The translations under genes and the position numbers were made by a program. Positions 37,386 to 56,323 of a stretch of 64,000 bases of DNA are shown here, piece after piece. The number at the start of each line of letters is the position of its first letter. Position 1 is the first letter of the stretch. Origin of the DNA: Dehalococcoidia bacterium (GTDB lineage: Bacteria; Chloroflexota; Dehalococcoidia; UBA6926); the NCBI GenBank assembly GCA_009841045.1, contig VXMO01000002.1, positions 55,292 to 119,291 on the forward strand, given 5' to 3'. Under the pieces are notes generated by a model. That model was not told the DNA's origin, ran no database searches, and saw nothing but the letters and a program-made list of their open reading frames with translations.

Positions 37386-40300
37386 TTAACCTGCTCCGTT
37401 CCTTGACCGTACCCAATACCGTCTACGCTGGAATGGGTAGCCGGGTACGGAGATTCTCAGGCGCTCCTCTCCCGCGAAGAATTTCACGAAATCGACATCC
37501 TGTCCGGCCTCGTACGCTCGCGCCGCAGCGCTCACAGGGTCGGTGTCTCTGTTCGCCGCCGCGCCATTCGCCGGGGAAGAACCGTCAATGAGCCGCTGGA
37601 GGCCCGCCCGCAAGTCATCCACGTTTGTGAAGACCACGCCCCCGCGGGCAGGGAAGTGGCTGCGCCCGACAGATGCTGTCCATGCCATGTCCGCAAGCGC
37701 CTCGTCAACGTGGTTGGCGTTTTCCGCCGACCCATTCACGCGGGTATCGAGCCAATCGCGATATCGCTCCGCAAGTTCGCGCAGGGCAGCATCGTCCTTG
37801 GCGGAAAGCGGTAGCAGCCGCGCCTTTGGTGCGGCGGATGGAGTGGGTTGCCGGGCGCCTGCCTCGTAGCCCTCGATAATAACGTGAGCGTTTGCGCCCG
37901 TCATGCCGAAGACGTTGATCGCCGCCATCGTGGGTCGATCAGCAGGCGCGGGCCAGTCCATTGCCTCTATGGGGATGTGCAGTGGCATGTTGCTCCAGTC
38001 GATTTCTGGGTTGGGCGTCGTGAAATTAAGGTGTTTGGGGATGAGACGGTGCTTCATTGCGAGAACGACCTTAATGAGGCCTGCCATTCCCGAGGCCGCC
38101 TCGAGGTGTCCCATGTTCGTCTTGACCGATCCCATGATGAGCGGGCGATCCGCCTCACGATCCCGTCCGTAGACGGCGGCGACGGCGTTGGCCTCGATAG
38201 AGTCTCCGAGCGGCGTGCCCGTGCCGTGTGCCTCCAGGTAGTCGATATCGGACGGCGTAACACCTGAACGTTCGAGGGCGTCCCGCATCACCGTCTGCTG
38301 TGCGGCCCCGTTGGGGCTGATCATGCTGAATCCCGCACCATTCTGGTTGACGGCCGAACCACGTACCACGCCCCAAATATGGTCTCCGTCTCTCTCTGCA
38401 TCGCTAAGTCGCTTCAGTACAACAAAGCCGCAGCCTTCGCCACGCACGTAGCCGTCGCCTGACGCGTCAAAGCTGGCTGTCCTTCCGCTTCGGGAGAGGA
38501 TGCCCAATTCAGCAAGGAAGCGCGACGTCGACTGGGAGAGAATGATGCTCACACCACCGGCAAGCGCCAGGTCAACCTCGCCATTTCGGAGCGCCGCCGC
38601 GCCCTGATGGACCGCCGCCACCGATGACGTGCAGGCAAGGTCGATTGGCACGGCAGGTCCCTGTAGCCCGAATGTAAACGCGATCCGACCAATGGCCATG
38701 CTTGGAGTGGTTCCAAAGATATCCTCGCCGCCATTCCTGGCAAGCACAGTACGATACTCACTGCCACTGATACCGGCGTAGACCCCGGTCTGGCTCCCTC
38801 GCAATTCGTCCGGATTGATCCCCGCGTCTTCCAATGCCTGCCATGCTGTTTCCAGGAGTAATCGCTGCTGAGGGTCCATCGTCCGCGCCTCAATGGGCTG
38901 GATTCGGAAGAACCGTGGATCGAACTCGTCGATGTTCTCCAGGAACGCGCCGTGCCGCTCATACGAGTTCTTGGCGTTTGGATCGCCGAGCAGCCCCGTC
39001 CAGTCGCCGCGGTTCGTGCGTCCGTCCGTAACGGCGGATTCGCCGTTCTCAAGCAGATGCCAGAAGGCATCAAGATTCTCTGACCCCGGGAAGCGGCATG
39101 CCATTCCAACGATGGCGATAGCGTCCTGATCCGTCTGTCTCTTGACGCGTGGTGTGGCTGCAGGTGTCTCCACGACCCGCGCGGGAGATGGCGGCGCAGG
39201 CAATTCCACGACGGGCGCAGGAAGCGGCGGTGTGGACCTCTCCACGATTGGCGTGGCAGAAGGTGCGATCTCGCCAAGCTCGCCCGCCACGTGGGCGGCC
39301 AGTCTCCCAATGCTCGGATAGTCAAAGACGACAGTGTTGGGCGCGACATATGCTCCAACGAGCGCGCGATTAATCCTGTTCCGCAGTTCGACGGCCATCA
39401 ACGAATCCATGCCGAGTTCGGAGAACTCCGCCGCGGGAGTCGGCTGCGACGGCATTCGCATCACCGACTGCAACTCCCGCCGGAGGAATTCGATGATCAG
39501 CTGCTCGCGCTCATCCGGAGCGGCGTTCCCGAGACTGGCAAGCAGTGTCTCGCCCGCATCCGCCGATCCTGCGTCCTCGTCTGATTCCACGTGCTCGAAC
39601 TCCGTGAACAACGGCGGCGTGAACCCCACGCTGTCAAGGAACGACTCCCACTCGATGGAAGTCACGGTTGCGTTCGTCCAGTCTTGGTGAACAAGCCAGT
39701 CAAAGGCGCGCATGCCTTGATCAGGAGACATCCAGAGCGTTCCTCGCTCCGCCAGCGTCTCCTCGATTCGCTCCCGCTGCTCCGCCGCCTCTCCGATGTC
39801 CGACCACGCGCCCCATGCGATGGTCTGACCGGCAAGCCCCATCGCGCGGCGGTGCCCGGCCAATTGATCGAGGAACGCGTTAGCGGCGGCGTGGTTCGCC
39901 TGTCCGGGGTTGCCGAACACGCCCGCCACGCTGGAGAACAGGATGAACATGTCCAGATCGCGATTCAGCGTCGCCCGATGCAACTGCCACGCGCCCAGGA
40001 TCTTTGGCGAGAGCACTCGCTCAAACGAGTCCCATGTCTGGTTGGCGACGGATGCATCCGCTAGGACGCCAACGCTGTGGATGACGCCTGCCAGTGGTGG
40101 GAGTGACGCATCGATCCGCTCAAGCATTGCATCAATTGCCGCGCCGTCCGTCACGTCCGCGAGTTCCACCTGCACGGTAACGCCCACCTCGCGCAGTTCG
40201 TCGATGACCTCCTGCGCCTCCGGATCAGGATTGCGCCGCCCGTTGAGCACGATTGCGCCCGCCCCCTTGTCCGCGAGCCACCGCGCCACCTCCGTGCCGA

Positions 40301-43300
40301 TACCTCCCAACCCGCCGGTCACGAGGTACGTCCTGTCGGCGCGGAGGCTGCCGCTCTGCAACGGTGAATTGGCGACGACGATCTTGCCGATGTGCAGAGC
40401 GTCCCGCATGAATTTGATGGCAGAGGGAACTTCGGCCATCGACCACGCAGTGTAGGGGATAGGACCAAGTTTGCCGTCATCCAACTGCTCCACCACGGCT
40501 CTGAGGGCGGTCCCTATGATCTCTGGGTGCGTCACCTTGAGTTCATCGTTCTTCAGGATGTGGTACTTCACGTCCGGCCGCGCCGTCGCCATTTCCTCCT
40601 CGGTCAGGATGCCGTCACGCGCCAGCTCAACGAATCGTCCGTCCTGAGCTAGGCACGAAAGGCTTGCGTCGATAAACCCCTCTCCGGTGAGGCTATTCAG
40701 CACAATGTCAACGCCCGCGCCGCCGGTGTCCTCCAGGATTTGTTGCCCAAAGAGCGTGCTACGGCTGTCATAGATGTGATTGATGCCGAGTTCCCGCAGA
40801 TATGTCTGCTTGCGGCTGCTTGCCGTCGCGAAGATCTCCGCCCCTGCAGCCTGCGCCATTGCAACCGCCGCCATCCCCACCCCGCCTGAAGCGGCATGGA
40901 TCAAAACGCGGTCGCCCGCCCCAAGACCGGCGAACTCGTAGGAACGCAAGGCTGTGGTATAGGCGGTTGGCACTGTCGCCAACTCTCGGGTTGACATCGT
41001 TTCGGGAGCATGAGCGATGAGTTGCTCATGGACGACGGTCTCAGCCGCCAACGTTTCAAATGAGAGACTGATGACGCGATCACCCGGAGACAGACGCGTG
41101 ACATCCGCGCCGACCTCTGTCACTCGCCCCATAAACTCAAGCCCTAGGTTGGTAGCATCCTCCATGCCGATGCTGAGCAGGACGTCACGGAAATTGAGAC
41201 CGACGGCGTCAACCGCGACGCGCGCTTGCCACGGCTCCAGGGCGGCATCCTCCACGTTATCGACGTAAATCCTGTCCGGATCTCCCGATTCATCCGGCAT
41301 CAACAACCAGCCCGAACCCTCTGGAATGGTGAGCCGGTCGGCAACGTCGCTGCTACGCACAAGCCGCGCAGCCTGACGATAGCCCCTGCGCCAAACGACA
41401 TGATTCTCACTGTCGGGTCGGAGTAACTCATCAATGAGATCGGTACTCTCTATGCCGTCATCATCCAGGTCAATCATTCTCGCCTGAAGCGCAGGAATCT
41501 CGCGAATCAGAACCTTGCCGAGTCCCCACAGGGCTGCCCCGGCCGGTTCGATGAGCGGCTCGCGTCCGATGGACTGCGCTCCGCGCGTAATGATCCAAAG
41601 GCCGCCTGACGGAATCACGTCCGCATCTAACAGCCCCTGGACCATCGCCAAAGCGGAGCCGCCAGCTTGCCGAATGTCTGCGGATAGTTCGTCGGTCGTC
41701 GCGTCCGAACCGTGACCGCCGGCGGCGACGAGGTGAATGACGCCACGCACGGGAACATCCTGCGGCAAGCTGTCAAACAGCGCGCGCCACGACTCCCGAT
41801 CCAGCAAGTCGACATCCGCGAGAGTAACGGTCTGGTTCCTTGCAGTCAGTTCGGCGGCCAGCGTGTCGGCAACGTCGCCGTCATCAGCGGCAATGACCCA
41901 TGCGCCGGGCTCCTCGATGATTTCGGCGGGTGCTCTAGCGAGGAAAACGGAACGGTCAGGGGCTTCGGATGATTCACCTGAGCCGAGTCCGAGAACCTGC
42001 GGGTCTTCAAACCCCGTGTCTAGTAGTGCCTGCGTCCATACGTCCGGGCCAACGATGGCATGGTTGGTTCGATACTTGTCGTTAAAGTGCCACCATCCCT
42101 CCAGCGCGCCAAACGTCACATCCTGCCAGCCCATCCCCACGAGGGCCTCTAGCGCGATCAGGTGGCCGGATGGCGCAAGGAGATTCATGCAGTTGCGCAG
42201 GGTCTCACTGAGGGAAACCGTGTCGTGCAGGACATTTGCCGCGATGACGAGGTCATAGCGATGAGGTTCAAACCCTTGTTCAACCGGGCTCTTTCCAATG
42301 TCGAGGGGCCTGTAGTCTATCGCGCCGTCGGCAGTCCCGAACCGGGCTTCCGCCTCTGAGAAGAATCCGGCGGAGATGTCTGTGTACACGTACTCGAAAC
42401 TGCCGGCCGGGAGCCTGGGCAAGACGGCGGCCGTGCTTGAGCCTGTCCCTGCGCCCACCTCGATGATTCGCAGCGTTCGTCCGGCAGGCACTTCTTGAAT
42501 AAGCGCGGCGATGGTATCGCCAAGCATGTTGTTCACTGCGCCTGTGGAAGGGGCGGTGTTGTAGAGGTCGCCGGGCGTTGGGTAATCGCTCCCAAACAGC
42601 ACGGTCAAGGGGTCGGTCTCTCTTTGCAGGATGCCGGGCAACTCCGCCGCCGTCCGTTGGCAGAGGGCAATCTCAATCGATCCAAAAGGATAGCGCTCCA
42701 GCATGGACTCAGCGAATGCGTTCGGATCAGGGGGCAGATCCGCCGGCAGCGGGTCATCCGGCCCGATCAAAACGTGGAAGCCATCCGCGGTTTCCCGCAT
42801 CACACCGGCGCGCACGAGTAGTTCAAAGACGCGCCTGAACAGCTTGGCGCGGTCACCCGTGATATTCAATTCGTCACTCAACGCCTCCGGGTTGATCACC
42901 TCTCCGGCGGCGTAGTGGCAGCCAAGCTCGCGGACGGCGGCCAGCGCAAACGAGTACGAAAGCCGTTCGATGTCGGCCATGAGATTTGTGCGGTCGCCCC
43001 AGTCCACCCCTTCACGTGAGATGTACTCCTTGAACGACGGCGTCGCAGCCTGAATCACAGAAGGCTCTGTGAGGAAATCTGCAGGCTGGAGCGGGAACAA
43101 CGGCCGGTCTTGCCAAACGACATCGTAGAGCAGGTTTGACAAACCTTCGTCTGCCGAGAACAACGCCTCGCGGGTGGCTCGCTTGATTGTCAAGCCAATG
43201 ATTCCGCCAAGCGGCTCGCCGTCGGGGCTGTAGATGGTCACGTCCGTTGCGTACACTTCCGGCGTGCCGCGTCGGCTGTCCGTTGCGGCGTCAGAGGGCC

Positions 43301-46300
43301 TTTCGCGCATGGTGGCGTGGCACAGGACCCGGGACGGCAGTGGGCCGCTCATCCAGAGCCGCTCCCACGCAAAAGGAAGGTAGGTGGTGCTATTGCTGAA
43401 GTCGTCGTCTATCCGTGCGGCAGAAGCGGCCTGCACACAGCCGTCGAGGAGCACGGGATGGAAATCAAGTCCGTTTCGGACGAGTTCATCAGGGAGTGTA
43501 ACTTCTCCAAGAGACGCCCCGTTTCCTGCCCACAGCTCTGTTACGGTCTGGAACAGTGGCCCGAAATCGAGGCGGATTTCCGCCTTGGACCGGTAGAACT
43601 CTACAATGTCGATTTGACGCAGACCGTCGCGTAACTCGTCCGGTGATATGGCCGTAACACCGTCCGGCAACCCGCGCTGATCGAGTGCCGTGCCCTTGGC
43701 GTGGAGCGTCCAGTTGTTCTCAGTGTCGGAAGTGCTGTAGATTTCGAAGCCGCGACTCGCGTCTTTGCCCCGAGGTTCAAGGATTACCTGGGCGGAGCGT
43801 TCGGCGGACTCAGGCGTGTCGTTGTCTTCGGCATCGGCAAAGACCATCGCGGTCTGTATCTGCGTATCGTCGAGGGCAACTATCCCGTCGTAATCGGCGC
43901 GCGCGGCCGTTAAGGCCATTGAGGCGTACATCGCCCCCGGCGCGATGACCCGCCCGAACACGCGATGGTCGCTCAGCCACGCCGGATTGGAGGGCGACGG
44001 GCGGCTTTCAAAACTCACCTCGCCGCGTGGGGACACATGGCGAATTCCCAGCAGCGGATGTCCCGCAACCGCTGCTGGTCGCGCGGACGTGTCAACCCAG
44101 TGGCGGTGTCGCTGGAAGGGATAGCCGGGAGCTATGACCCGGCGGCGCGACTCGCCCGTGAAGAGGCCCGGAAAATCGATGGGAACACCGGCTTCATAGG
44201 CGGCTGCAACCGCGGTTATGAAACCACGAGTCGCATCAACGGGCGGCTCCGTCTCGTCATGGGGAGGACGAATCATGCTCGATAAGACGGGCGGATCCTT
44301 GACGGGGGCGTTGGGCGGCCATGCTAGGGAGACGACAGGGCCGAGAACCATGCCGGGTCCAATCTCGATGACGAAGTCCACGCCCATCTCTGCCATGGAC
44401 TCGATGCTGGATCGGAAGAGTACTTTTTCACGAGCGTGCCGACTCCAGTAAGCGGCATCGATAAGCTCCCCCTCCTCCAGGGGTCGCCCCGTATAGTCGC
44501 AGATCAGAGGTATTTGCGGCGTGCGCGGGGACTTGAGGATTTCGCTGAACGTGCTTTCCTGCGTGTCCAACATCGGCTCGACAAAGGCGCTATGGAAAGC
44601 AGGCCCCGGGGTCAATCGTCGGACGCGGACCTCCTCCGCCTCAAACCGCTGCAGGATTGCCTCAACGTCATCCTTGCCTCCGCTGACGACCTGGTTGATG
44701 GCGTTATCGAGGCCGATGGTGAGGCGTGTATCGCCGCTGATAGCTTGTTGTTCCACAATTGCGGCCTCAACGGCGGCCTGCGGCGCGAAGACCGCGCCCA
44801 TCGCCGCGTCCAGAGGCAATCCGCTCATCAACTCTCCGCGCGCCGTTGTCATGCGCAGCCCTTCCTCAAAGGTCAGGGCTCCGGCGGCTTGCGCCGCCGC
44901 GAACTCACCCAAACTGTGTCCGGCGACGACTGATGGCGTAACACCGATGCTCTTCCACAGCGCCGTGAGCATACATTCCACCGCGTAGACGGCTGGCTGT
45001 GCCCACCGAGAATCGTCCAGGTCGCCGGCGCGGCCAAAGATGACGTCGAGTAGCGATTCGCCCCGTTCGCTCTGCACGATGGCCTCACACCGGTCCAAAA
45101 TGTCTCGTGCGACCGGCTCAGTCTCATACAGCGTCTGCGCCATGCCGACCCATTGGCTGTTTTGGCCGGTGTAGACGAAAGCAATCTTTGATGGGGCGCC
45201 CGCCGGGCGGCGTGGGGAGGTTGATTCAGCGATTTTATCGAGGCCGTCTCTAAGGGATGCGGCATCGCGGAATGGGATGGCAGCGCGGTAGCGGAAATGG
45301 CTGCGGCCGATGCTCGTTGTCCACGTCAAGTCTGAGAGGACGGGGTCGGATGTGGGAGCGTCCGGGGACGGCCCGCCGGATGTCTCGCTGAGTTGGTCAA
45401 GATAGCGCTGGGCCAGATCTTGCAAAGTTTCGGGCGTTTTAGCCGAAAGCGGCAGTATGCGTGTTTGACGCGGTGTGGTATCCGTCACGTCGACAGAGTC
45501 GGGAGCATCCAATTCAACGGATGCCCCTAAGGGCCACATGGTGGTTCCGGCTGACAGGGACGGTGCGGCGGGCGCGCCGTAGCCTTCCACGATGACGTGG
45601 GCATTCGTGCCGGACCATCCAAACCCGCTCACAGCGGCTCGTGGCGGCCTGCCGTCGACTTGCGGCCAGTCCATTGCCTCGGTCGGCACGTGCAGGTTGG
45701 CCGTCTCCCAGTCGATTGCCGTGGTGGGATTCTCGAAATTGAGGTGCTTGGGGATGATGCCGCGCCGCATTCCCAGGATAACCTTCATCATTCCCGCAAC
45801 GCCTGACGCCGGCTCGAGGTGCCCAAAATTCGTCTTGACGGAGCCGATGATCATGGGTTGGTCCGCTGGTCGGCCACTGCCGTACGCGGCTGCCGCGGCC
45901 TGCAGTTCAGGAGGGTCGCCGACCGGAGTCGCCGTCCCGTGCGCTTCCAGGTAATCCACATCCATGGGGGTAAGCCCGGCTGAGGCCAGCGCGTCGCGAA
46001 TGACGTTTTCTTGTGCGGAAGCGCTCGGCACAGTCAGGCCCTGGCTTGCGCCGTCCTGGTTGATTGCAGAGCCGCGGATGATTCCCCAGATGCGGTCGCC
46101 GTCCCGTTCGGCGTCGCTCAGGCGCTTGAGCACCATGATTCCGCAGCCCTCGCCGCGCAGATAACCGTCCGCCGCCTCATCAAACGTCCGGCATATACCG
46201 TTGGGTGAGAGCATCCCGGCCTGTCGTCGAAGGAACATGACCCTGCCGGAGAGCATCGCGTTGACACCTCCGGCCAGGGCAATATCTGCCTCCCCGCGCT

Positions 46301-46895
46301 GAAGGCCGACAATGGCCTGGTGCGTGGCGACGAGGGATGACGAGCAAGCCGTATCGATAGCAAGCGCAGGCCCCTCAAGACCAAGCGTGTAGGAGATGCG
46401 CCCGATAGCGGTATTGAGGTTGCTCCCGCTGGCTGCGTAAAGACTGGTGGCGGGATCGTCCAGTTCAATCGACGCAACGGCCGCAGCGCGATACTCATTG
46501 TTGCTGATGCCGCCGTAGACGCCGGTGCGCGTTCCCCTGAGGGTTTCCGGATCGATCCCCGCGTCTTCGAGGGCGCGCCAACTCGTTTCCAACATAAGCC
46601 GCTGTTGCGGATCCAGAAGCTGTGCCTCTATCGGCGCGATTCTGAAGAACTCGGCATCGAACTTGTCGATGTCGTCGATGAATGCTCCGTAGTGGATGAT
46701 GTCGCCCTGCGTGGAGGGAAGCTCAAGGAATTCGCCCATGCGACCGGGCCCTTCGCCGACCCTCCCCTCTGTTCGCACCATGGTGCCAGAGGACAGCAGC
46801 CGCCAATAGGAATCGTAATCGTTCGCGCCGGGAAATCGGCACGCCATACCGATGATTGCGATGGGTTCGCCCGTCTGGGAGATGTATCCTGCCAC
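37386..46895 (-). CDS. Type I polyketide synthase: KS-AT-DH-cMT-psiKR-ER-KR-ACP-KS(-AT deleted)
   Basis: Approximate positions: KS1 46880-45590 (DTACSSSL, EAHGTATP, KTNFGHLEPASG), AT 45190-44290 (GQNSQW, GHSLGE), DH 44080-43150 (HRVFGRVIAPG), cMT 42560-41960 (IIEVGAGTGSST), ER 41310-40370 (HAASGGVGMAAVAMAQ), KR 40340-39790 (TGGLGGIG), ACP 39500-39290 (LGMDSLMAVEL), KS2 39140-37870 (DLACTSSV, EAHGTGTP, KTNMGHLEAASG). Track start GTG 46907; GTG 46895 follows GGGAGGG. Confidence 0.93.
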   Translation of the reverse strand: MAGYISQTGEPIAIIGMACRFPGANDYDSYWRLLSSGTMVRTEGRVGEGPGRMGEFLELPSTQGDIIHYGAFIDDIDKFDAEFFRIAPIEAQLLDPQQRLMLETSWRALEDAGIDPETLRGTRTGVYGGISNNEYRAAAVASIELDDPATSLYAASGSNLNTAIGRISYTLGLEGPALAIDTACSSSLVATHQAIVGLQRGEADIALAGGVNAMLSGRVMFLRRQAGMLSPNGICRTFDEAADGYLRGEGCGIMVLKRLSDAERDGDRIWGIIRGSAINQDGASQGLTVPSASAQENVIRDALASAGLTPMDVDYLEAHGTATPVGDPPELQAAAAAYGSGRPADQPMIIGSVKTNFGHLEPASGVAGMMKVILGMRRGIIPKHLNFENPTTAIDWETANLHVPTEAMDWPQVDGRPPRAAVSGFGWSGTNAHVIVEGYGAPAAPSLSAGTTMWPLGASVELDAPDSVDVTDTTPRQTRILPLSAKTPETLQDLAQRYLDQLSETSGGPSPDAPTSDPVLSDLTWTTSIGRSHFRYRAAIPFRDAASLRDGLDKIAESTSPRRPAGAPSKIAFVYTGQNSQWVGMAQTLYETEPVARDILDRCEAIVQSERGESLLDVIFGRAGDLDDSRWAQPAVYAVECMLTALWKSIGVTPSVVAGHSLGEFAAAQAAGALTFEEGLRMTTARGELMSGLPLDAAMGAVFAPQAAVEAAIVEQQAISGDTRLTIGLDNAINQVVSGGKDDVEAILQRFEAEEVRVRRLTPGPAFHSAFVEPMLDTQESTFSEILKSPRTPQIPLICDYTGRPLEEGELIDAAYWSRHAREKVLFRSSIESMAEMGVDFVIEIGPGMVLGPVVSLAWPPNAPVKDPPVLSSMIRPPHDETEPPVDATRGFITAVAAAYEAGVPIDFPGLFTGESRRRVIAPGYPFQRHRHWVDTSARPAAVAGHPLLGIRHVSPRGEVSFESRPSPSNPAWLSDHRVFGRVIAPGAMYASMALTAARADYDGIVALDDTQIQTAMVFADAEDNDTPESAERSAQVILEPRGKDASRGFEIYSTSDTENNWTLHAKGTALDQRGLPDGVTAISPDELRDGLRQIDIVEFYRSKAEIRLDFGPLFQTVTELWAGNGASLGEVTLPDELVRNGLDFHPVLLDGCVQAASAARIDDDFSNSTTYLPFAWERLWMSGPLPSRVLCHATMRERPSDAATDSRRGTPEVYATDVTIYSPDGEPLGGIIGLTIKRATREALFSADEGLSNLLYDVVWQDRPLFPLQPADFLTEPSVIQAATPSFKEYISREGVDWGDRTNLMADIERLSYSFALAAVRELGCHYAAGEVINPEALSDELNITGDRAKLFRRVFELLVRAGVMRETADGFHVLIGPDDPLPADLPPDPNAFAESMLERYPFGSIEIALCQRTAAELPGILQRETDPLTVLFGSDYPTPGDLYNTAPSTGAVNNMLGDTIAALIQEVPAGRTLRIIEVGAGTGSSTAAVLPRLPAGSFEYVYTDISAGFFSEAEARFGTADGAIDYRPLDIGKSPVEQGFEPHRYDLVIAANVLHDTVSLSETLRNCMNLLAPSGHLIALEALVGMGWQDVTFGALEGWWHFNDKYRTNHAIVGPDVWTQALLDTGFEDPQVLGLGSGESSEAPDRSVFLARAPAEIIEEPGAWVIAADDGDVADTLAAELTARNQTVTLADVDLLDRESWRALFDSLPQDVPVRGVIHLVAAGGHGSDATTDELSADIRQAGGSALAMVQGLLDADVIPSGGLWIITRGAQSIGREPLIEPAGAALWGLGKVLIREIPALQARMIDLDDDGIESTDLIDELLRPDSENHVVWRRGYRQAARLVRSSDVADRLTIPEGSGWLLMPDESGDPDRIYVDNVEDAALEPWQARVAVDAVGLNFRDVLLSIGMEDATNLGLEFMGRVTEVGADVTRLSPGDRVISLSFETLAAETVVHEQLIAHAPETMSTRELATVPTAYTTALRSYEFAGLGAGDRVLIHAASGGVGMAAVAMAQAAGAEIFATASSRKQTYLRELGINHIYDSRSTLFGQQILEDTGGAGVDIVLNSLTGEGFIDASLSCLAQDGRFVELARDGILTEEEMATARPDVKYHILKNDELKVTHPEIIGTALRAVVEQLDDGKLGPIPYTAWSMAEVPSAIKFMRDALHIGKIVVANSPLQSGSLRADRTYLVTGGLGGIGTEVARWLADKGAGAIVLNGRRNPDPEAQEVIDELREVGVTVQVELADVTDGAAIDAMLERIDASLPPLAGVIHSVGVLADASVANQTWDSFERVLSPKILGAWQLHRATLNRDLDMFILFSSVAGVFGNPGQANHAAANAFLDQLAGHRRAMGLAGQTIAWGAWSDIGEAAEQRERIEETLAERGTLWMSPDQGMRAFDWLVHQDWTNATVTSIEWESFLDSVGFTPPLFTEFEHVESDEDAGSADAGETLLASLGNAAPDEREQLIIEFLRRELQSVMRMPSQPTPAAEFSELGMDSLMAVELRNRINRALVGAYVAPNTVVFDYPSIGRLAAHVAGELGEIAPSATPIVERSTPPLPAPVVELPAPPSPARVVETPAATPRVKRQTDQDAIAIVGMACRFPGSENLDAFWHLLENGESAVTDGRTNRGDWTGLLGDPNAKNSYERHGAFLENIDEFDPRFFRIQPIEARTMDPQQRLLLETAWQALEDAGINPDELRGSQTGVYAGISGSEYRTVLARNGGEDIFGTTPSMAIGRIAFTFGLQGPAVPIDLACTSSVAAVHQGAAALRNGEVDLALAGGVSIILSQSTSRFLAELGILSRSGRTASFDASGDGYVRGEGCGFVVLKRLSDAERDGDHIWGVVRGSAVNQNGAGFSMISPNGAAQQTVMRDALERSGVTPSDIDYLEAHGTGTPLGDSIEANAVAAVYGRDREADRPLIMGSVKTNMGHLEAASGMAGLIKVVLAMKHRLIPKHLNFTTPNPEIDWSNMPLHIPIEAMDWPAPADRPTMAAINVFGMTGANAHVIIEGYEAGARQPTPSAAPKARLLPLSAKDDAALRELAERYRDWLDTRVNGSAENANHVDEALADMAWTASVGRSHFPARGGVVFTNVDDLRAGLQRLIDGSSPANGAAANRDTDPVSAAARAYEAGQDVDFVKFFAGEERLRISVPGYPFQRRRYWVRSRNGAG

Positions 46896-46945
46896 GATCC
46901 CTCCCACGCTCGGTAATCAGATTCTCGGGCCGCAAGTCTGCATCC

Positions 46946-50025: not shown

Positions 50026-50511
50026 GTGACAGACAACCACGATCAATCTCAGGGCGGTAATGACTCCCCGCAAGGGGCGCAGCCTATAGGCTTGGGTATT
50101 CAGGTGACCAGCCTGATGAATGCGGTCCTCAGGGGCGCGGCGACCGAATTGGAGCCCTACGACATTACCCCATTGGAGTTCACAGCTCTGCGCATGTGCT
50201 TGGCCAAAGGCGAGACCACCATGACAGAGTTGGCGACGATATTGCCTGTCGACACCTCCCGCACAAGCCGCACCGTGACCGGCTTGGTTGACAAGGGCTT
50301 GCTCCGCAGGCGCAGGCGCCGAGACGACCGCCGTGTTGTTATGCTGCGGCTTTCCGAACAGGGAATTGAGCTAACCTCGACGCTCCAGGAACTGCTACGG
50401 GCCTTCGATGCCAGGCTCACGGAGAACGTCACTGAGGATGAACTGAGGGTGTTCGAATCCGTAATCTCAAGAATTGCCGCCAACTACGCTGCCATGCAGG
50501 AGACCGAATAG
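50026..50511 (+). CDS. MarR family transcriptional regulator
   Basis: GTG start; YDITPLEFTALRMCLAKGETTMTELATILPVDTSRTSRTVTGLVDKGLLRRRRRRDDRRVVMLRLSEQG. Confidence 0.88.
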   Translation: MTDNHDQSQGGNDSPQGAQPIGLGIQVTSLMNAVLRGAATELEPYDITPLEFTALRMCLAKGETTMTELATILPVDTSRTSRTVTGLVDKGLLRRRRRRDDRRVVMLRLSEQGIELTSTLQELLRAFDARLTENVTEDELRVFESVISRIAANYAAMQETE

Positions 50512-50569: not shown

Positions 50570-51397
50570 TTACGAAAACGGCTTGTTGGCAATCGCCTCG
50601 CCGTATCCGACGGCTAGCAGCGCGCCGGGATCCCTCCGCCACCTCTCATAAGCAACGGCTATATCATCGGCGAGTTTCCTGGTGGTTACTCCGTAGCCAA
50701 TCGCCTGCTCTCTGAGACTCGGCGACAAGAACCAGGCGTAGACCAGGCGGTAAATGAACTCGATTTCCTCCGCAGAGTCGAACATGTCAAACGTCGCATT
50801 CATCCTGATGTTGGCAAATCCCGCCTTGATAAGCCGGTCCTTTAGTTCCTTGCCCATCTGCGGATGAGCATCATCAGTCGCCAGGATGTCTTCGAACATA
50901 TCCCATGCCTTCCTGAGGATGCCGAAGTCGGGCACAGTAAAGCTGGACTCGCAGATCATCTCGCGGCAGCCGATGATGCCCCCCGGCTTCAGGACGCGCA
51001 TCACCTCCGCCAGCACGGCCTCGGTGTCCGGAACGTGCATCAGGACGTTATGGCAGTGGGCGACGTCGAAGTAGTCGTCCTCAAACGGAAGGTCCGCCAC
51101 GTCGGCAACCTGGAATATCGTGTTCGTTTGGCCGGCTGCCTCCGCCACGGATCGCGCCAGGTCGATCTGCGATTCCTCCATGTCGACACCGTATAGCTCC
51201 CCCGGTGAGACAGCCTGTGCCAGGCCAACTGATATGGTGCCGGGGCCGCAGCCGAAATCCAGAATACGAAGCCCCGGCCTCAGATAGGGAAGGAGATAGG
51301 CGGCGTTTTTCTGCGCGGTGAAGCGCCGCATAGTCTCAACAAACTCATGGCCGAAGCCCATCGTGTAGTCAGGGGTTGAAGATGTTCCGTGCGTCAT
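50570..51397 (-). CDS. Class I SAM-dependent methyltransferase
   Basis: LRILDFGCGPGTISVGLAQAV.GELYGVDMEESQIDLAR, LPFEDDYFDVAHCHNVLMHVPD. Confidence 0.88.
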   Translation of the reverse strand: MTHGTSSTPDYTMGFGHEFVETMRRFTAQKNAAYLLPYLRPGLRILDFGCGPGTISVGLAQAVSPGELYGVDMEESQIDLARSVAEAAGQTNTIFQVADVADLPFEDDYFDVAHCHNVLMHVPDTEAVLAEVMRVLKPGGIIGCREMICESSFTVPDFGILRKAWDMFEDILATDDAHPQMGKELKDRLIKAGFANIRMNATFDMFDSAEEIEFIYRLVYAWFLSPSLREQAIGYGVTTRKLADDIAVAYERWRRDPGALLAVGYGEAIANKPFS

Positions 51398-51454
51398 TCG
51401 GGTATGCTTCCTCGCTCACCCCCACGGTCCAACATCGCTCCTCTCGGCCAGACT

Positions 51455-51668
51455 GTTGGCGCCCCCGTGTCGGGATCCGGGGGCTGCACAGACCCAAAAG
51501 GCGGGTCAGAACAGGTAGAGACTTTGGGGTGCGACAGCGCAGCGACCAAGGGGATGTTGTCGGGTGTAGTCGCCACCGGACTTGGCGCTGTTGCCGGCAC
51601 AGGCTTTCGCCGTACAAGGGCCAAGTGGGACACCTCCCGACATTGCACTGCGAATCTTGCCGAGTGTC
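51455..51668 (-). repeat. Conserved leader element, copy 1, upstream of the methyltransferase
   Basis: Homologous to 53335-53536; contains the shared 26-nt block TTTCG(C/T)CGTACAAGGGCCAAGTGGGA at 51605-51630 (25/26 identical). Confidence 0.75.
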
Positions 51669-51735
51669 ACTATACCACTTGGGTGTAACCATAGCGTAAC
51701 TATCTCACCGCATCGGCGTTACTTCGTGTAACTAT
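51669..51735 (-). promoter_or_regulatory. Predicted OmpR-type-controlled promoter, copy 1
   Basis: + strand: ACTATA 51669-51674 (TATAGT on minus), TAACCAT 51686-51692, TAACTAT 51697-51703, TAACTAT 51729-51735. Confidence 0.65.
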
Positions 51736-51763
51736 TCGCAGAACTCCGCCGGAATCTTCACTT

Positions 51764-51796
51764 CCGCTCACCCTGAGCCTGTCGAAGGGTGAGCGG
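51764..51796. repeat. REP-like palindromic element, copy 5
   Basis: CCGCTCACCCTGAGCCTGTCGAAGGGTGAGCGG. Confidence 0.8.
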
Positions 51797-51810
51797 GGCG
51801 CTTCCGTCCA

Positions 51811-52416
51811 CTACCTCCAGAACGCCGGTGCAATCTCTCTCACACAGTACGTGCCGGCTGCTCGCCAAGGCCCGTAGCCGTTGTTGGGGCATTCGCTGAT
51901 GCTGCTGACGCCATGGGTCAAGTATCGTTCCACAACCGACGTGCAATTCTTCGCGGCTGATAGCGCAAAGGGCCCGTCACCGTAGTTAACTGAAAAGTTC
52001 GAAGCCAAGAGATAAACAACTTCGTCGGCAGACACCGTCCCTGCCGGTGTTGAGAGAGCCGGGAAGCTTCCACCATGGTCGCTTGAAGCAGTCGTCCAGA
52101 GGGTGCACGGCCCCCGCCGGTCTTTACGTGCAGTTGGAGTGGTTCTTGTCGTGGTAGGAGACGCGCCTTGTGGGGGCGTCGTGGCGCGTGGCGTTGGAGT
52201 GGCAGTGGCCTCAGCCGCCGGGTCGTCGCCGTCCTCCTCTTCCGGAACCGCGGTCGGAGTGGCGGTCGCCAGAGCAGGCGGCGGCAGCAAGGGACCCGGG
52301 TTGCTCGGATCGGGAAGATCATCCTGAGCGGCGACAGAGGCGGCTGTCAGGATCAGCGATGCCAGCAAGACAATCGTTACAGCAAGACCAAAGGCAAGAC
52401 GTCCACGCTTGTTCAT
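51811..52416 (-). CDS. Secreted hypothetical protein with Pro/Thr/Ala-rich linker and Cys-containing C-terminal domain
   Basis: Signal peptide MNKRGRLAFGLAVTIVLLASLILTAASVAAQ; linker PPPALATATPTAVPEEEDGDDPAAEATATPTPRATTPPQGASPTTTRTTPTA; overlaps the end of the upstream gene. Confidence 0.75.
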   Translation of the reverse strand: MNKRGRLAFGLAVTIVLLASLILTAASVAAQDDLPDPSNPGPLLPPPALATATPTAVPEEEDGDDPAAEATATPTPRATTPPQGASPTTTRTTPTARKDRRGPCTLWTTASSDHGGSFPALSTPAGTVSADEVVYLLASNFSVNYGDGPFALSAAKNCTSVVERYLTHGVSSISECPNNGYGPWRAAGTYCVREIAPAFWR

Positions 52417-53213
52417 CAGCTGCCCCTCCTTTCCTGGGAAGCCGTCGAGTACGCGGTATAGGCGGCCAGCGCCGCCTCGTGAGCCTCCGTGTAGCGGGCG
52501 TAAGCGGCCTCAAGCCGGACGAGGCCGTCCTGATCAGTCGCGCAGTTTGAGACCGCCTCAACGCTGCCGCACAGGGAAATCGCCAGATCGCTGTAGTCAC
52601 GCTCAGCGCTCGACCGCTCTTCAAGCCGCTCATAGCTCTCATGGGCAAGCCTGTAGAAGGCGATGTCCTCGGTGAGCGTGCCGGCCGTCTCTGACAGTTC
52701 CCGGTGTTCGACAAAGAGAGTATCGTAGCGACCTTGGACGTTCGCCAACTCTCGCGACAATGAATCAACAGTGACTTGCAACCGTTCACGCTCCTGGTCG
52801 CTCCTGGAGACGACCAGCGAATAGCGCGTGTTCTCGGCTTTCAGATCATTACGGGCGTCTTCCAGGCCCTCGCGTTCCGCGCGTTCTCTCTCCAGCGCGG
52901 TCTCGGAGTTCTCAAGCTGTCGCCCAGTCTCCTGCACGGCCGAGGAAAGGGAATCGCGCTCATTTCCCAGTGAGGCAATCGTTGCCCGCTTCACCTCAAG
53001 CTCAGCCTTGTTCTCACTGAGATCCAGCGTGGTAGCGTTGAGTTGGCCCCGCGTTCCACTTAGTTCATTCAGGGAAAAGACCAGACCAACGCTGGCAACG
53101 CTCAGAAGCGCGATCGCCAGAACCAGTCCGACGATCTTCTTGTTGTTCGGCGCGCTGTCGAAAGCCACAACGGCCATCGCTATTCCAACGCTCAACTTGT
53201 TCATAACTCGCAT
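52416..53213 (-). CDS. Membrane-anchored coiled-coil protein
   Basis: TM (KKIVGLVLAIALLSVASVGLVFSL) followed by a long heptad-rich region; start at ATG 53213 (track ORF starts 53273). Confidence 0.75.
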   Translation of the reverse strand: MRVMNKLSVGIAMAVVAFDSAPNNKKIVGLVLAIALLSVASVGLVFSLNELSGTRGQLNATTLDLSENKAELEVKRATIASLGNERDSLSSAVQETGRQLENSETALERERAEREGLEDARNDLKAENTRYSLVVSRSDQERERLQVTVDSLSRELANVQGRYDTLFVEHRELSETAGTLTEDIAFYRLAHESYERLEERSSAERDYSDLAISLCGSVEAVSNCATDQDGLVRLEAAYARYTEAHEAALAAYTAYSTASQERRGS

Positions 53214-53334
53214 GGCACAGGTCGACCATCCTTTCCTTCTAAATGGGTGCAACCGGCGCTTGTCCAAGCGCAAAAATGTAGGTGAATGCCGAGAGAGGGG
53301 TTAGGGACTAATGCTCCATTCTCACGCTGTCAGC

Positions 53335-53536
53335 CATCGTGTTGGGAGCGAAGGCTGCGCAGACCCATAGCGGATCTGGATACAGGTGAAACCTGTGGAG
53401 TGCGGCAACACAGCGATCGCGAAAAGGCTCCCCGCGCGGTAGCCACCGGACGTGACGCTGCATTGGCACGGTATTTCGTCGTACAAGGGCCAAGTGGGAT
53501 GCCTCCCAACATGCACTACGAATCTGACCGCCCACT
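53335..53536 (-). repeat. Conserved leader element, copy 2, upstream of the coiled-coil gene
   Basis: Homologous to 51455-51668; shared block at 53474-53499; local hairpin ACAGGT-GAA-ACCTGT at 53382-53396. Confidence 0.75.
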
Positions 53537-53603
53537 ACTATACCACGCCGATATAACTATTCCGTAACTATTCGCACATGTTTCCATCACTTCTTGTAAC
53601 CAT
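53537..53603 (-). promoter_or_regulatory. Predicted OmpR-type-controlled promoter, copy 2
   Basis: ACTATA 53537-53542, TAACTAT 53554-53560, TAACTAT 53565-53571, TAACCAT 53597-53603; same spacing as copy 1. Confidence 0.65.
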
Positions 53604-53622
53604 TCACCAAAACACGCATAAT
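53594..53622 (+). promoter_or_regulatory. Possible divergent promoter for the hybrid kinase gene
   Basis: TTGTAA - 17 nt - CATAAT; the -35 overlaps the distal TAACCAT box. Confidence 0.45.
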
Positions 53623-53701: not shown

Positions 53702-56062
53702 TTGAATCAACAAGACGACTTGATGCGAGAGGTGGCGGAGCTTCGGGAGCGTCTCTCCAGGCTGAGCGAGGCCAGCCTCCATATCACTGAAGACCTCGAT
53801 ATCGACGCCGTGCTGCAGCGCGTTGTGGATGGAGCGCGGGCGCTGACGGCGTCGCGCTATGGCGCGATCACCATCCCGGGCGAGTCCGTGAGACACCCCA
53901 GCTTCTTCGTCTCCGGCCTGACCCGGGAAGAGCACCAGGGGCTCTTCGATATGCCGGAGGGTCTTGAATTCCTAAAGTACATGAGCGGGCTTGAGGAGCC
54001 TCTGCGCGTCTCGAATATCAACAGCCACCTGAGCGCAATGAATATGCCTGAATTCCTGCCCACGGTGCCGGCGACCTCCGTTCTGATTGCTCCGATACGC
54101 CACCAGGGGGTTGGCGTGGGCACCATCTACCTGGCTCATGGCCTTGATAACAGGGAGTTCAGCCAGGAAGACGAGGATACGCTGGTCCTGTTCGCGTCCC
54201 AGGCGGCGATGGCCATCTCCAACGCCCACAGGCACCGCGAGGAGCGGCTGGCAAGGGCCGACCTGGAGACCCTCATCGACACGTCACCAGTTGGAGTGGT
54301 CGTCTTCGATGCTTTGACGGGAGCCCCGAAGTCCTTCAACCAGGAGGCCAGGAGAATCGTCGACAGTCTGCGGAATGCCGACCAGTCCCCTGAGCAGCTG
54401 TTGGAAGTGTTGACCTTCAGGCGGGGCGACCGGCAGGAGGTCTCCCTGCGGGAGTTTCCCCTTGCTGAACTTCTGAGGATCGGGGAGACGCTTCGGGCTG
54501 AAGAGATTTTCATGCATGTCCCCGATGGGCGGAGCATCACGGTGCTCCTCAACGCCACTCCCATCCGCTCCGAGGACGGCACGGTGGAATCGATGGTCGT
54601 CACCCTGCAGGACATGGCCGATATCGAAGAACTGGAGCGGCTGCGGGCCGAGTTCCTGGCGATGGTGAGCCACGAACTGAGAACTCCTCTCACCTCCATC
54701 AAAGGCTCCGTCTCCACGATCATGGATGCTGGGACGGACCTTGACCCCGCCGTGGCTCGCCAGTTCGTCCGAATCATCAATGACCAGGCCGATCACATGA
54801 ACGCCCTGGTTGCAGACCTGCTCGACGTGGCTCGCATTGAGACGGGCACGCTGCCGGTTGATCCGGAACCTGCCGAGGTGGCCGTATTGATGGACAGGGC
54901 GCGGAGCGGCTTCGCCAGCGCATGGGGCAGAAACAACCTCACCATCGACATCGAGCCGGATTTGCCGCTGGTGATGGCGGACAGGCGGCGCATCGTCCAG
55001 GTGCTGGGCAACCTGCTGTCCAACGCGGCGCGCAACTCCCCGGAGTCGGCGGTCATCCGGGTGGCCGCTGCGCGGGATGGCGTTCACGTCGCGTTCTCTG
55101 TGGTCGACGAAGGGCGAGGCATCCCGGCGGAGAGCCTCCCCCACCTCTTTCGTAAGTTCTATGGAACACAGTCCGAGGAACAGGGAGGAGACACAGGGCT
55201 GGGTCTGGCTATCTGCAAGGGTATCGTGGAAGCGCACGGAGGCCGCATCTGGGCCGAGAGCGACGGGCCCGGAATGGGAGCGCGCTTCACCTTCACTCTT
55301 CCGGCGCTCGAAGACTCCGGAAGCGACGCGGCCGGGAGATTCCCATCGGCGTCAACACGGCACGAAGAAAGCGCGGAGGAGCGGCTGCGCGTTCTGGCAG
55401 TGGACGACGACCCCAACGATCTCCGCTACGTGCGCGACACTCTTGCCAGATCGGGCTATGCGCCGATCTTGACCGGAGACCCGGAAGAAGCGCTCCGCCT
55501 CGTAGAGCAGGATAGGCCGGAGCTTGTCCTGCTGGATCTGATGCTCCCGGGAACGGACGGCATCGAGCTGATGAAGGACATCCTCGATATGGCCGATGTG
55601 CCCGTCATCTTCCTGTCCGCCTACGGACGGGAGGAACTCATCGCCCGGGCCTTTGACATGGGAGCCACCGACTACGTCGTAAAACCCTTCTCACCAACGG
55701 AACTCTCGGCCAGGATCAGGGCTGCCCTGCGAAGACGGGCGACCACAGAGCCGATGAAGCCCTACGTGCTGGGCGACTTAACCATCGACTACACGGAGCG
55801 CAGCGTGACAATTGCAGGGAACCACGTCTATCTCACGCCCACTGAGTATCGGGTGCTGGCCGAACTATCGGCCAATGCGGGACAGGTCGTGACGTATGAG
55901 CGCCTTCTGGTGCAGGTCTGGGGAGAGAAGAGCGATGGTGACGTGCGGCCAATGCGCACCATCGTGAACAAGCTCCGCCGCAAGCTGGGCGAGGACGCGG
56001 AAGCCCCCACCCGCATATTTACCGAAGCCCGCGTCGGCTACCGCATGCCCAGGGGGGAGTAG
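53702..56062 (+). CDS. Hybrid sensor histidine kinase: GAF-PAS-HisKA-HATPase-REC-OmpR winged helix
   Basis: FLAMVSHELRTPLTSIKGSVS (HisKA), VDEGRGIPAESLPHLFRKFY (HATPase), LAVDDDPND..VLLDLMLPGTDG (REC), YLTPTEYRVLAELSANAGQVVTYERLLVQVWG (OmpR wHTH); TTG start. Confidence 0.9.
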   Translation: MNQQDDLMREVAELRERLSRLSEASLHITEDLDIDAVLQRVVDGARALTASRYGAITIPGESVRHPSFFVSGLTREEHQGLFDMPEGLEFLKYMSGLEEPLRVSNINSHLSAMNMPEFLPTVPATSVLIAPIRHQGVGVGTIYLAHGLDNREFSQEDEDTLVLFASQAAMAISNAHRHREERLARADLETLIDTSPVGVVVFDALTGAPKSFNQEARRIVDSLRNADQSPEQLLEVLTFRRGDRQEVSLREFPLAELLRIGETLRAEEIFMHVPDGRSITVLLNATPIRSEDGTVESMVVTLQDMADIEELERLRAEFLAMVSHELRTPLTSIKGSVSTIMDAGTDLDPAVARQFVRIINDQADHMNALVADLLDVARIETGTLPVDPEPAEVAVLMDRARSGFASAWGRNNLTIDIEPDLPLVMADRRRIVQVLGNLLSNAARNSPESAVIRVAAARDGVHVAFSVVDEGRGIPAESLPHLFRKFYGTQSEEQGGDTGLGLAICKGIVEAHGGRIWAESDGPGMGARFTFTLPALEDSGSDAAGRFPSASTRHEESAEERLRVLAVDDDPNDLRYVRDTLARSGYAPILTGDPEEALRLVEQDRPELVLLDLMLPGTDGIELMKDILDMADVPVIFLSAYGREELIARAFDMGATDYVVKPFSPTELSARIRAALRRRATTEPMKPYVLGDLTIDYTERSVTIAGNHVYLTPTEYRVLAELSANAGQVVTYERLLVQVWGEKSDGDVRPMRTIVNKLRRKLGEDAEAPTRIFTEARVGYRMPRGE

Positions 56063-56272
56063 CCCGCGACCAACCGTCCCGGCGTCCCCGACACCGTTTC
56101 TGCGTGTGCCACGGGTTAGACATCCCTTAATTGATGACCACGCCCGGTGGTGTAATGCCGCCTCCGTCGCTTGGAATTACAAGCGGAATTGATGCCATGC
56201 GAGTTGTCTAAATCGAAGGATATAGGAGAATCTGTGTAACTTCACGCAAAACTCATATAAATTAGCCCACTT

Positions 56273-56291
56273 CTTGTGATATTCTCACAAG
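56273..56291. promoter_or_regulatory. Inverted repeat CTTGTGA-TATTC-TCACAAG overlapping a possible promoter of the giant surface protein
   Basis: 7-bp arms; TTGTGA - 16 nt - TAATAC reads as a weak promoter just upstream of ATG 56324. Confidence 0.4.
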
Positions 56292-56323
56292 GAATTAATA
56301 CCTTGCATGGTACTATCAACGAC

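Follow-up and report, generated by a model that had tools for sequence, protein, structure and literature searches.

A four-half-site operator array shared by a hybrid sensor kinase gene, a methyltransferase gene and surface-protein genes in a Dehalococcoidia genome: a candidate auto-regulated regulon

The window analysed here is a 64,000-nucleotide stretch of contig VXMO01000002.1 from a Dehalococcoidia bacterium (GCA_009841045.1), in which two homologous elements, copy 1 (51455-51735) and copy 2 (53335-53603), lie upstream of two different genes. Judged from sequence, both copies very probably serve as operator and promoter within a single auto-regulated regulon under the hybrid kinase encoded at 53702-56062. 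The distribution of the operator among genomes, its site at the kinase promoter, the recurrent methyltransferase partner and the sites on other contigs together point to a multi-locus, auto-regulated regulon of the OmpR/PhoB/WalR type. What is directly observed is the array with its fixed geometry, how it is conserved and distributed among genomes, and which kinds of genes adjoin it.

Architecture of the two copies

The two copies align in the same orientation with 70% identity (query positions 27-298, E = 2.3e-21), as the sequence-only reading of the window had described, and they are the only matches to a 321-base copy 1 query in the 1.95-Mb assembly (E <= 0.001). Similarity extends from the boxes at the upstream end across the promoter and on into the leader. 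On the + strand the -10 (ACTATA) starts at 51669 in copy 1 and 53537 in copy 2, followed by TAACYAT boxes A, B and C starting at 51686, 51697 and 51729 (copy 1) and 53554, 53565 and 53597 (copy 2). The spacings of 17, 11 and 32 nt given earlier for -10 to A, A to B and B to C are exact on the sequence, and the -35 facing the targets is indeed non-canonical. The positions of the three boxes were right and their number was not, since each copy carries four half-sites of the GTAAC type, offset by 0, 11, 33 and 43 bp and reading GTAAC, GTAAC, RTNAC and GTAAC on the + strand, of which the weaker one (C') sits 10 bases before box C. The array thus consists of two direct-repeat pairs, A-B with 11-bp and C'-C with 10-bp spacing, two helical turns apart on the same face of the helix. 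The features of the two regions are as follows.

51685-51732, - strand: operator copy 1, methyltransferase promoter (sequence; pattern match G000:C25:106977-107023; leave-out matrix score 40.8)
51685-51689, 51696-51700, 51718-51722 and 51728-51732, read on +: copy 1 half-sites GTAAC, GTAAC, GTTAC and GTAAC
51669-51674, - strand: -10 hexamer TATAGT facing the methyltransferase gene, 11 bp past the operator's last GTTA
53553-53600, no strand assigned: operator copy 2, between divergent promoters (sequence; leave-out matrix score 40.7)
53553-53557, 53564-53568, 53586-53590 and 53596-53600, read on +: copy 2 half-sites ATAAC, GTAAC, ATCAC and GTAAC
53537-53542, - strand: -10 hexamer TATAGT facing the coiled-coil gene (sequence)
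53594-53622, + strand: sigma-70-like kinase promoter TTGTAA-N17-CATAAT; the fourth half-site overlaps its -35

The 11/22/10 spacing of the half-sites, including both pair spacings, is fixed across copy 1, copy 2, two further sites of the same genome (C12 and C18) and the related genome G002. Among the target-facing promoters, 12 of 14 have their best -10 at 11-12 bp beyond the array. The direct-repeat format and this distance to the -10 support the earlier suggestion of predicted OmpR/PhoB-type sites.

Between the end of a 201-aa gene and copy 1, an inverted repeat, GCTCACCCTTCGACAGGCTCAGGGTGAGC, was observed at 51764-51795; it is a possible terminator or dispersed palindrome.

The hybrid kinase and its promoter

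Copy 2 is located between the coiled-coil gene and the gene of the proposed regulator.

53702-56062, + strand: hybrid sensor kinase, GAF-PAS-HisKA-HATPase-receiver-Trans_reg_C (Pfam)

The product is one 786-aa chain joining sensor, kinase, receiver (residues 564-673) and DNA-binding domains, the last being a Trans_reg_C match (residues 707-782, E = 9.2e-19) that bears out the OmpR domain read from the letters. The closest solved structures to the receiver and DNA-binding part are MtrA (2gwr) and KdpE (4kny). The arrangement of the kinase's own -35 and -10 with box C was found in 15 of the 23 kinase orthologues examined, across families, this set of 15 having been chosen on that very feature; half-sites outside the selected columns were also enriched in the orthologue promoters (positions -5, -7, -26, -27 and -37). 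Copy 1 has no kinase gene alongside, and there all four half-sites are kept while the kinase-facing -10 is lost.

The same-genus genome G001 has no close orthologue of the kinase or the methyltransferase and no operator site, and a search of GTDB contigs for relatives of the kinase gave distant matches only, without the region.

Distribution of the operator

Genome-wide scans were made by pattern, G000 being the genome of the window (assembly 91% complete). Perfect matches to the core RTAACYATNNCGTAACTAT in this genome number three: copy 1, copy 2 and C12:2120. The last is another promoter and stands before the gene of a 683-aa secreted protein that carries an Ig-like He_PIG domain. With the composite pattern a further site appears, C18:20694, ahead of a gene for a leucine-rich-repeat (LRR) lipoprotein, which brings the operator sites in this genome to at least four, at least two of them on contigs other than that of the window. 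Random scatter of the motif, named beforehand as the refuting outcome, was not what the scan returned, and the small local regulon that had been proposed is supported as a regulon but not as a purely local one.

When 393 genomes of the class were scanned, the composite pattern gave 22 matches against 25 for a reversed control, hence no overall enrichment. The matches are concentrated where a kinase orthologue (about 60% identity or more) is encoded, and there they stand ahead of genes that recur: these 23 genomes give 14 matches against 1 reversed, and the remaining 370 give 8 against 24 (Fisher p = 1.5e-5). Seven of the 14 lie off the loci that defined the pattern, namely C12, C18, G321:C14:263972, G178:C35, a site downstream of the kinase in G242, G336:C78 and G078:C9. 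A matrix trained on sites at other loci and in other genomes, without copy 1, copy 2 and C12, scored these three at 40.8, 40.7 and 39.4, the next independent position in the window reaching 8.8 and the maxima of 30 shuffled windows averaging 12.4 +/- 3.1 (largest 20.4; plain mononucleotide shuffles). The simple GTAACN6GTAAC with two mismatches shows no enrichment in the window (14 matches against 19.5 expected), so the half-site pair alone is uninformative, unlike the composite. Most targets begin with a signal or lipoprotein peptide, those of G240, G242 and G336 being judged from translated starts alone.

Two operator-like tandem arrays about 124 bp apart were also seen on the minus strand of G178:C35 (L117), at ~1364-1425 and 1488-1549, and the gene behind them encodes a lipobox-like N-terminus and a HEIGHS motif, a possible metallopeptidase. 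In the window, a weak box-like stretch at 56235-56300 (TGTAACTTCACGC ... CACTTCTTGTGATATTC; matrix score only 4.7) precedes a large secreted repeat protein on the + strand beyond the kinase gene.

Predicted target genes and the methyltransferase partner

Three genes of the window lie behind the two copies.

50570-51397, - strand: class I S-adenosylmethionine methyltransferase (Methyltransf_31/25/11, UbiE-like), copy 1 target (Pfam; orthologues)
52416-53213, - strand: coiled-coil protein, membrane segment at the N-terminus, the gene directly behind copy 2 (open reading frame (ORF); no Pfam match)
51811-52416, - strand: 201-aa protein with a signal-peptide-like N-terminus (ORF; no Pfam match)

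The 201-aa gene probably belongs to the same operon as the coiled-coil gene, because its start overlaps the coiled-coil stop. Orthologues of the methyltransferase (59-69% identity) lie a few kb from the kinase on the same contig in G002, G238, G240, G321, G178 and G332. In G321 the two genes face each other over a single operator. In G002 each has its own operator, in the same order as in the window with a different intervening gene, indicating that the layout already existed before these two species diverged. In G356 and G078 the methyltransferase is found on a contig other than that of the kinase match, with the operator still present. The operators upstream of the methyltransferase in G002, G356:C48, G178 and G078:C9, all left out of the training of the matrix, scored 18-31 against shuffled maxima of about -3 +/- 3.5. 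As read from these neighbourhoods, the methyltransferase is a conserved partner of the kinase, its orthologues being preceded by operators in several families. The gene was also seen in tandem, in two or three copies beside the kinase, at G238:C71:2808-4558 and G240:C8:10057-12775.

The MarR gene at 50026-50511 was considered as the regulator and set aside, as MarR sites are generally inverted repeats. A 3173-aa, polyketide-synthase-like ORF on the minus strand (37386-46907) lies a few kb from the regulon genes.

Proposed mechanism

A cytoplasmic signal would be sensed by the kinase via its GAF and PAS domains and the phosphate handed to its own receiver, whereupon the C-terminal OmpR-type domain could bind the two direct-repeat pairs as head-to-tail dimers, one on GTTAC-N6-GTTAY near the target -10 and the other on GTTAC-N5-RTNAY one to two turns upstream. 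Target promoters would thereby be activated, the repeat standing in for the -35 with the -10 11-12 bp further on, and the same array, covering the -35 of the kinase's own promoter, would provide feedback of either sign. The predicted targets comprise the methyltransferase, the operon of the coiled-coil and 201-aa genes and, on other contigs, two or more genes whose products are secreted or lipid-anchored. Binding by the kinase, activation, dependence on phosphorylation and the signal are inferred.

Alternative explanations

The transcribed leader might matter instead, with both genes governed by a regulatory peptide encoded in it or by an RNA acting in cis (a riboswitch or attenuator). The features concerned are the following.

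51397-51662, - strand: presumed transcribed leader of copy 1, with the transcription start inferred (homology to copy 2 and G002)
51633-51638, - strand: GGGAGG Shine-Dalgarno-like box in the copy 1 leader, which has a GC-rich hairpin near its end
51394-51624, - strand: possible short ORF of copy 1 (TTG start, 76 aa, MALVRRKPVP...)
53308-53530, - strand: presumed leader of copy 2 with a GGGAGG box at 53502-53507 (homology)
53491-53493, - strand: TTG start of the short ORF of copy 2 (61 aa, MALVRRNTVP...)

Several features speak for such a role. The leader of about 200 nt shows 70-72% identity from copy to copy and with G002, at the level of coding sequence within the genus; the TGA of the copy 1 ORF overlaps the methyltransferase ATG (ATGA); a GGGAGG box followed by a start codon (TTG or GTG) and an M[AT]LV[RQ]R frame recurs in copy 1, copy 2, G002 and C12, and at a contig end in G281 with MAIVQR; third-position changes are commoner in frame; and the terminal GC hairpin holds one compensatory change. 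The coding signal is nevertheless weak and confined to the first 10 codons, the frame being broken downstream by indels and the start missing from the leader of the G002 methyltransferase, for which reason a conserved protein was rejected. A riboswitch or structured RNA was likewise rejected: the Rfam scan gave no family match near threshold, the folding energies were no better than those of shuffles (z -1.1 and 0.0), and the pair counts of the hairpin did not exceed shuffles either (168/500; three sequences, low power). The whole-element DNA search of 60 relatives matched G002 only, marking a genus-level element, no exact match to a 21-nt leader core was found in GTDB contigs, and other families that retain the operator have a dissimilar leader. 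Control by the leader is accordingly an unlikely explanation, and of the promoter-plus-leader homology first reported the similarity between the copies is real, whereas conservation of the leader stops at the genus and an RNA switch or a peptide in it is hypothetical. In C12 the GGGAGG box and M[AT]LVRR start are the true start of the secreted protein, and the frame in the window may be a short leader ORF or a remnant of a gene of that type.

That the copies are a mere recent tandem duplication or mobile repeat without regulatory role would fit their distance of 1.87 kb, with genes inserted between them. Its simple form is refuted by the same-order, two-operator layout of kinase and methyltransferase in G002, with different inserted genes, and by an operator that outlives its surrounding sequence across families; we regard it as highly improbable. 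The operator could also be real and bound by another OmpR-family regulator, either a paralogous hybrid kinase or a separate protein like MtrA or WalR, in which case the kinase next door would be merely a target. This is improbable, since the operator tracks the orthologues of this very kinase and is present at the kinase promoter across families, and no operator of this kind lies upstream of the kinase paralogue at G000:C21 (best score 14.2, inside the shuffled range). Regulation by the hybrid kinase has points against it as well: about half of the 14 matches, being kinase-adjacent or window sites, shaped the pattern themselves; the canonical promoter arrangement is absent in eight of the 23 kinase orthologues; promoter geometry is the sole basis for the sign of activation; and a stand-alone response regulator of similar specificity is a possible binder.

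Possible reuse of the 5' block before surface proteins

The sites at G000:C18:20694-20740 (L129) and, in another family, G321:C14:263972-264018 (L119) are homologous in operator, promoter, 5' untranslated region (UTR) and lipoprotein N-terminus, and the mature proteins are wholly different, with leucine-rich repeats in the former and RCC1 repeats in the latter. C12 and the window copies likewise have operator, UTR, GGGAGG box and M[AT]LVRR start in common with different genes behind them. This sharing suggests that the whole 5' block was copied before different surface proteins. Tentatively, the unit of operator, promoter, 5' UTR and signal or lipoprotein start may be reused before unrelated ectodomains, so that one cytoplasmic sensor would serve a changeable set of surface proteins.

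Significance and comparison with known systems

Transcriptional regulation is very poorly known in this uncultivated lineage, for which distant kinase relatives and general gene content suggest Chloroflexota. Sequence alone provides here a candidate regulator, a precise operator that occurs at least four times in a single genome, and a conserved partner gene, so that the regulon of a fused kinase-response regulator becomes directly testable and the methyltransferase gains an anchor. It also hints at how surface-protein genes join one switch, the promoter being copied along with the secretion signal. Literature searches on two-component regulation in Chloroflexi and SAR202 yielded no such system, which is weak evidence of absence.

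The WalR/VicR (YycF) boxes of Bacillota are direct repeats of the form TGTWAH-N5-TGTWAH (PMC4168254). The 11-bp period, the OmpR-family regulator and the envelope or surface targets are alike, and on the + strand the A-B pair deviates from the box once in copy 1 (TGTAAC-N5-CGTAAC) and twice in copy 2 (TATAAC-N5-CGTAAC), while C'-C has 10-bp spacing. Different are the two pairs in a fixed 11/22/10 array and, likely, the host phylum. Moreover, WalKR consists of a separate WalR and the membrane kinase WalK, whereas the proposed regulator is a fused single chain without an operon of the walK/walR type.

The pho box of E. coli comprises two 7-nt direct repeats with 4 nt between them (PMC4415409), and PhoB sites stand at a strictly kept distance from the core promoter (PMC10294691). 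TAACYAT-N4-TAACYAT is of the same format and likewise takes the place of the -35, but the half-site is GTTAC/GTAAC instead of TGTCA, four half-sites are common to divergent promoters, and no phosphate genes are among the targets seen. ArcA sites of E. coli are direct repeats with 11-bp centre spacing, extra repeats one or two turns off being usual (PMC3798270). Repeat number and spacing vary widely in ArcA, whereas the four-element geometry described here is nearly invariant over families, and ArcB and ArcA are separate proteins, in contrast to a regulator fused to its kinase.

The hybrid two-component systems (HTCS) of Bacteroides are single polypeptides made up of sensor, kinase, receiver and DNA-binding parts, with AraC-type output and periplasmic sensing, and they control adjacent genes of surface proteins. 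The window kinase resembles them as a single-chain two-component regulator with predicted control of neighbouring surface-protein genes, and differs in its OmpR-type output and GAF/PAS domains. By its sequence, the array joins the OmpR-family kind of operator, with an unusually constant four-element arrangement and a proposed regulator that is fused to its kinase.
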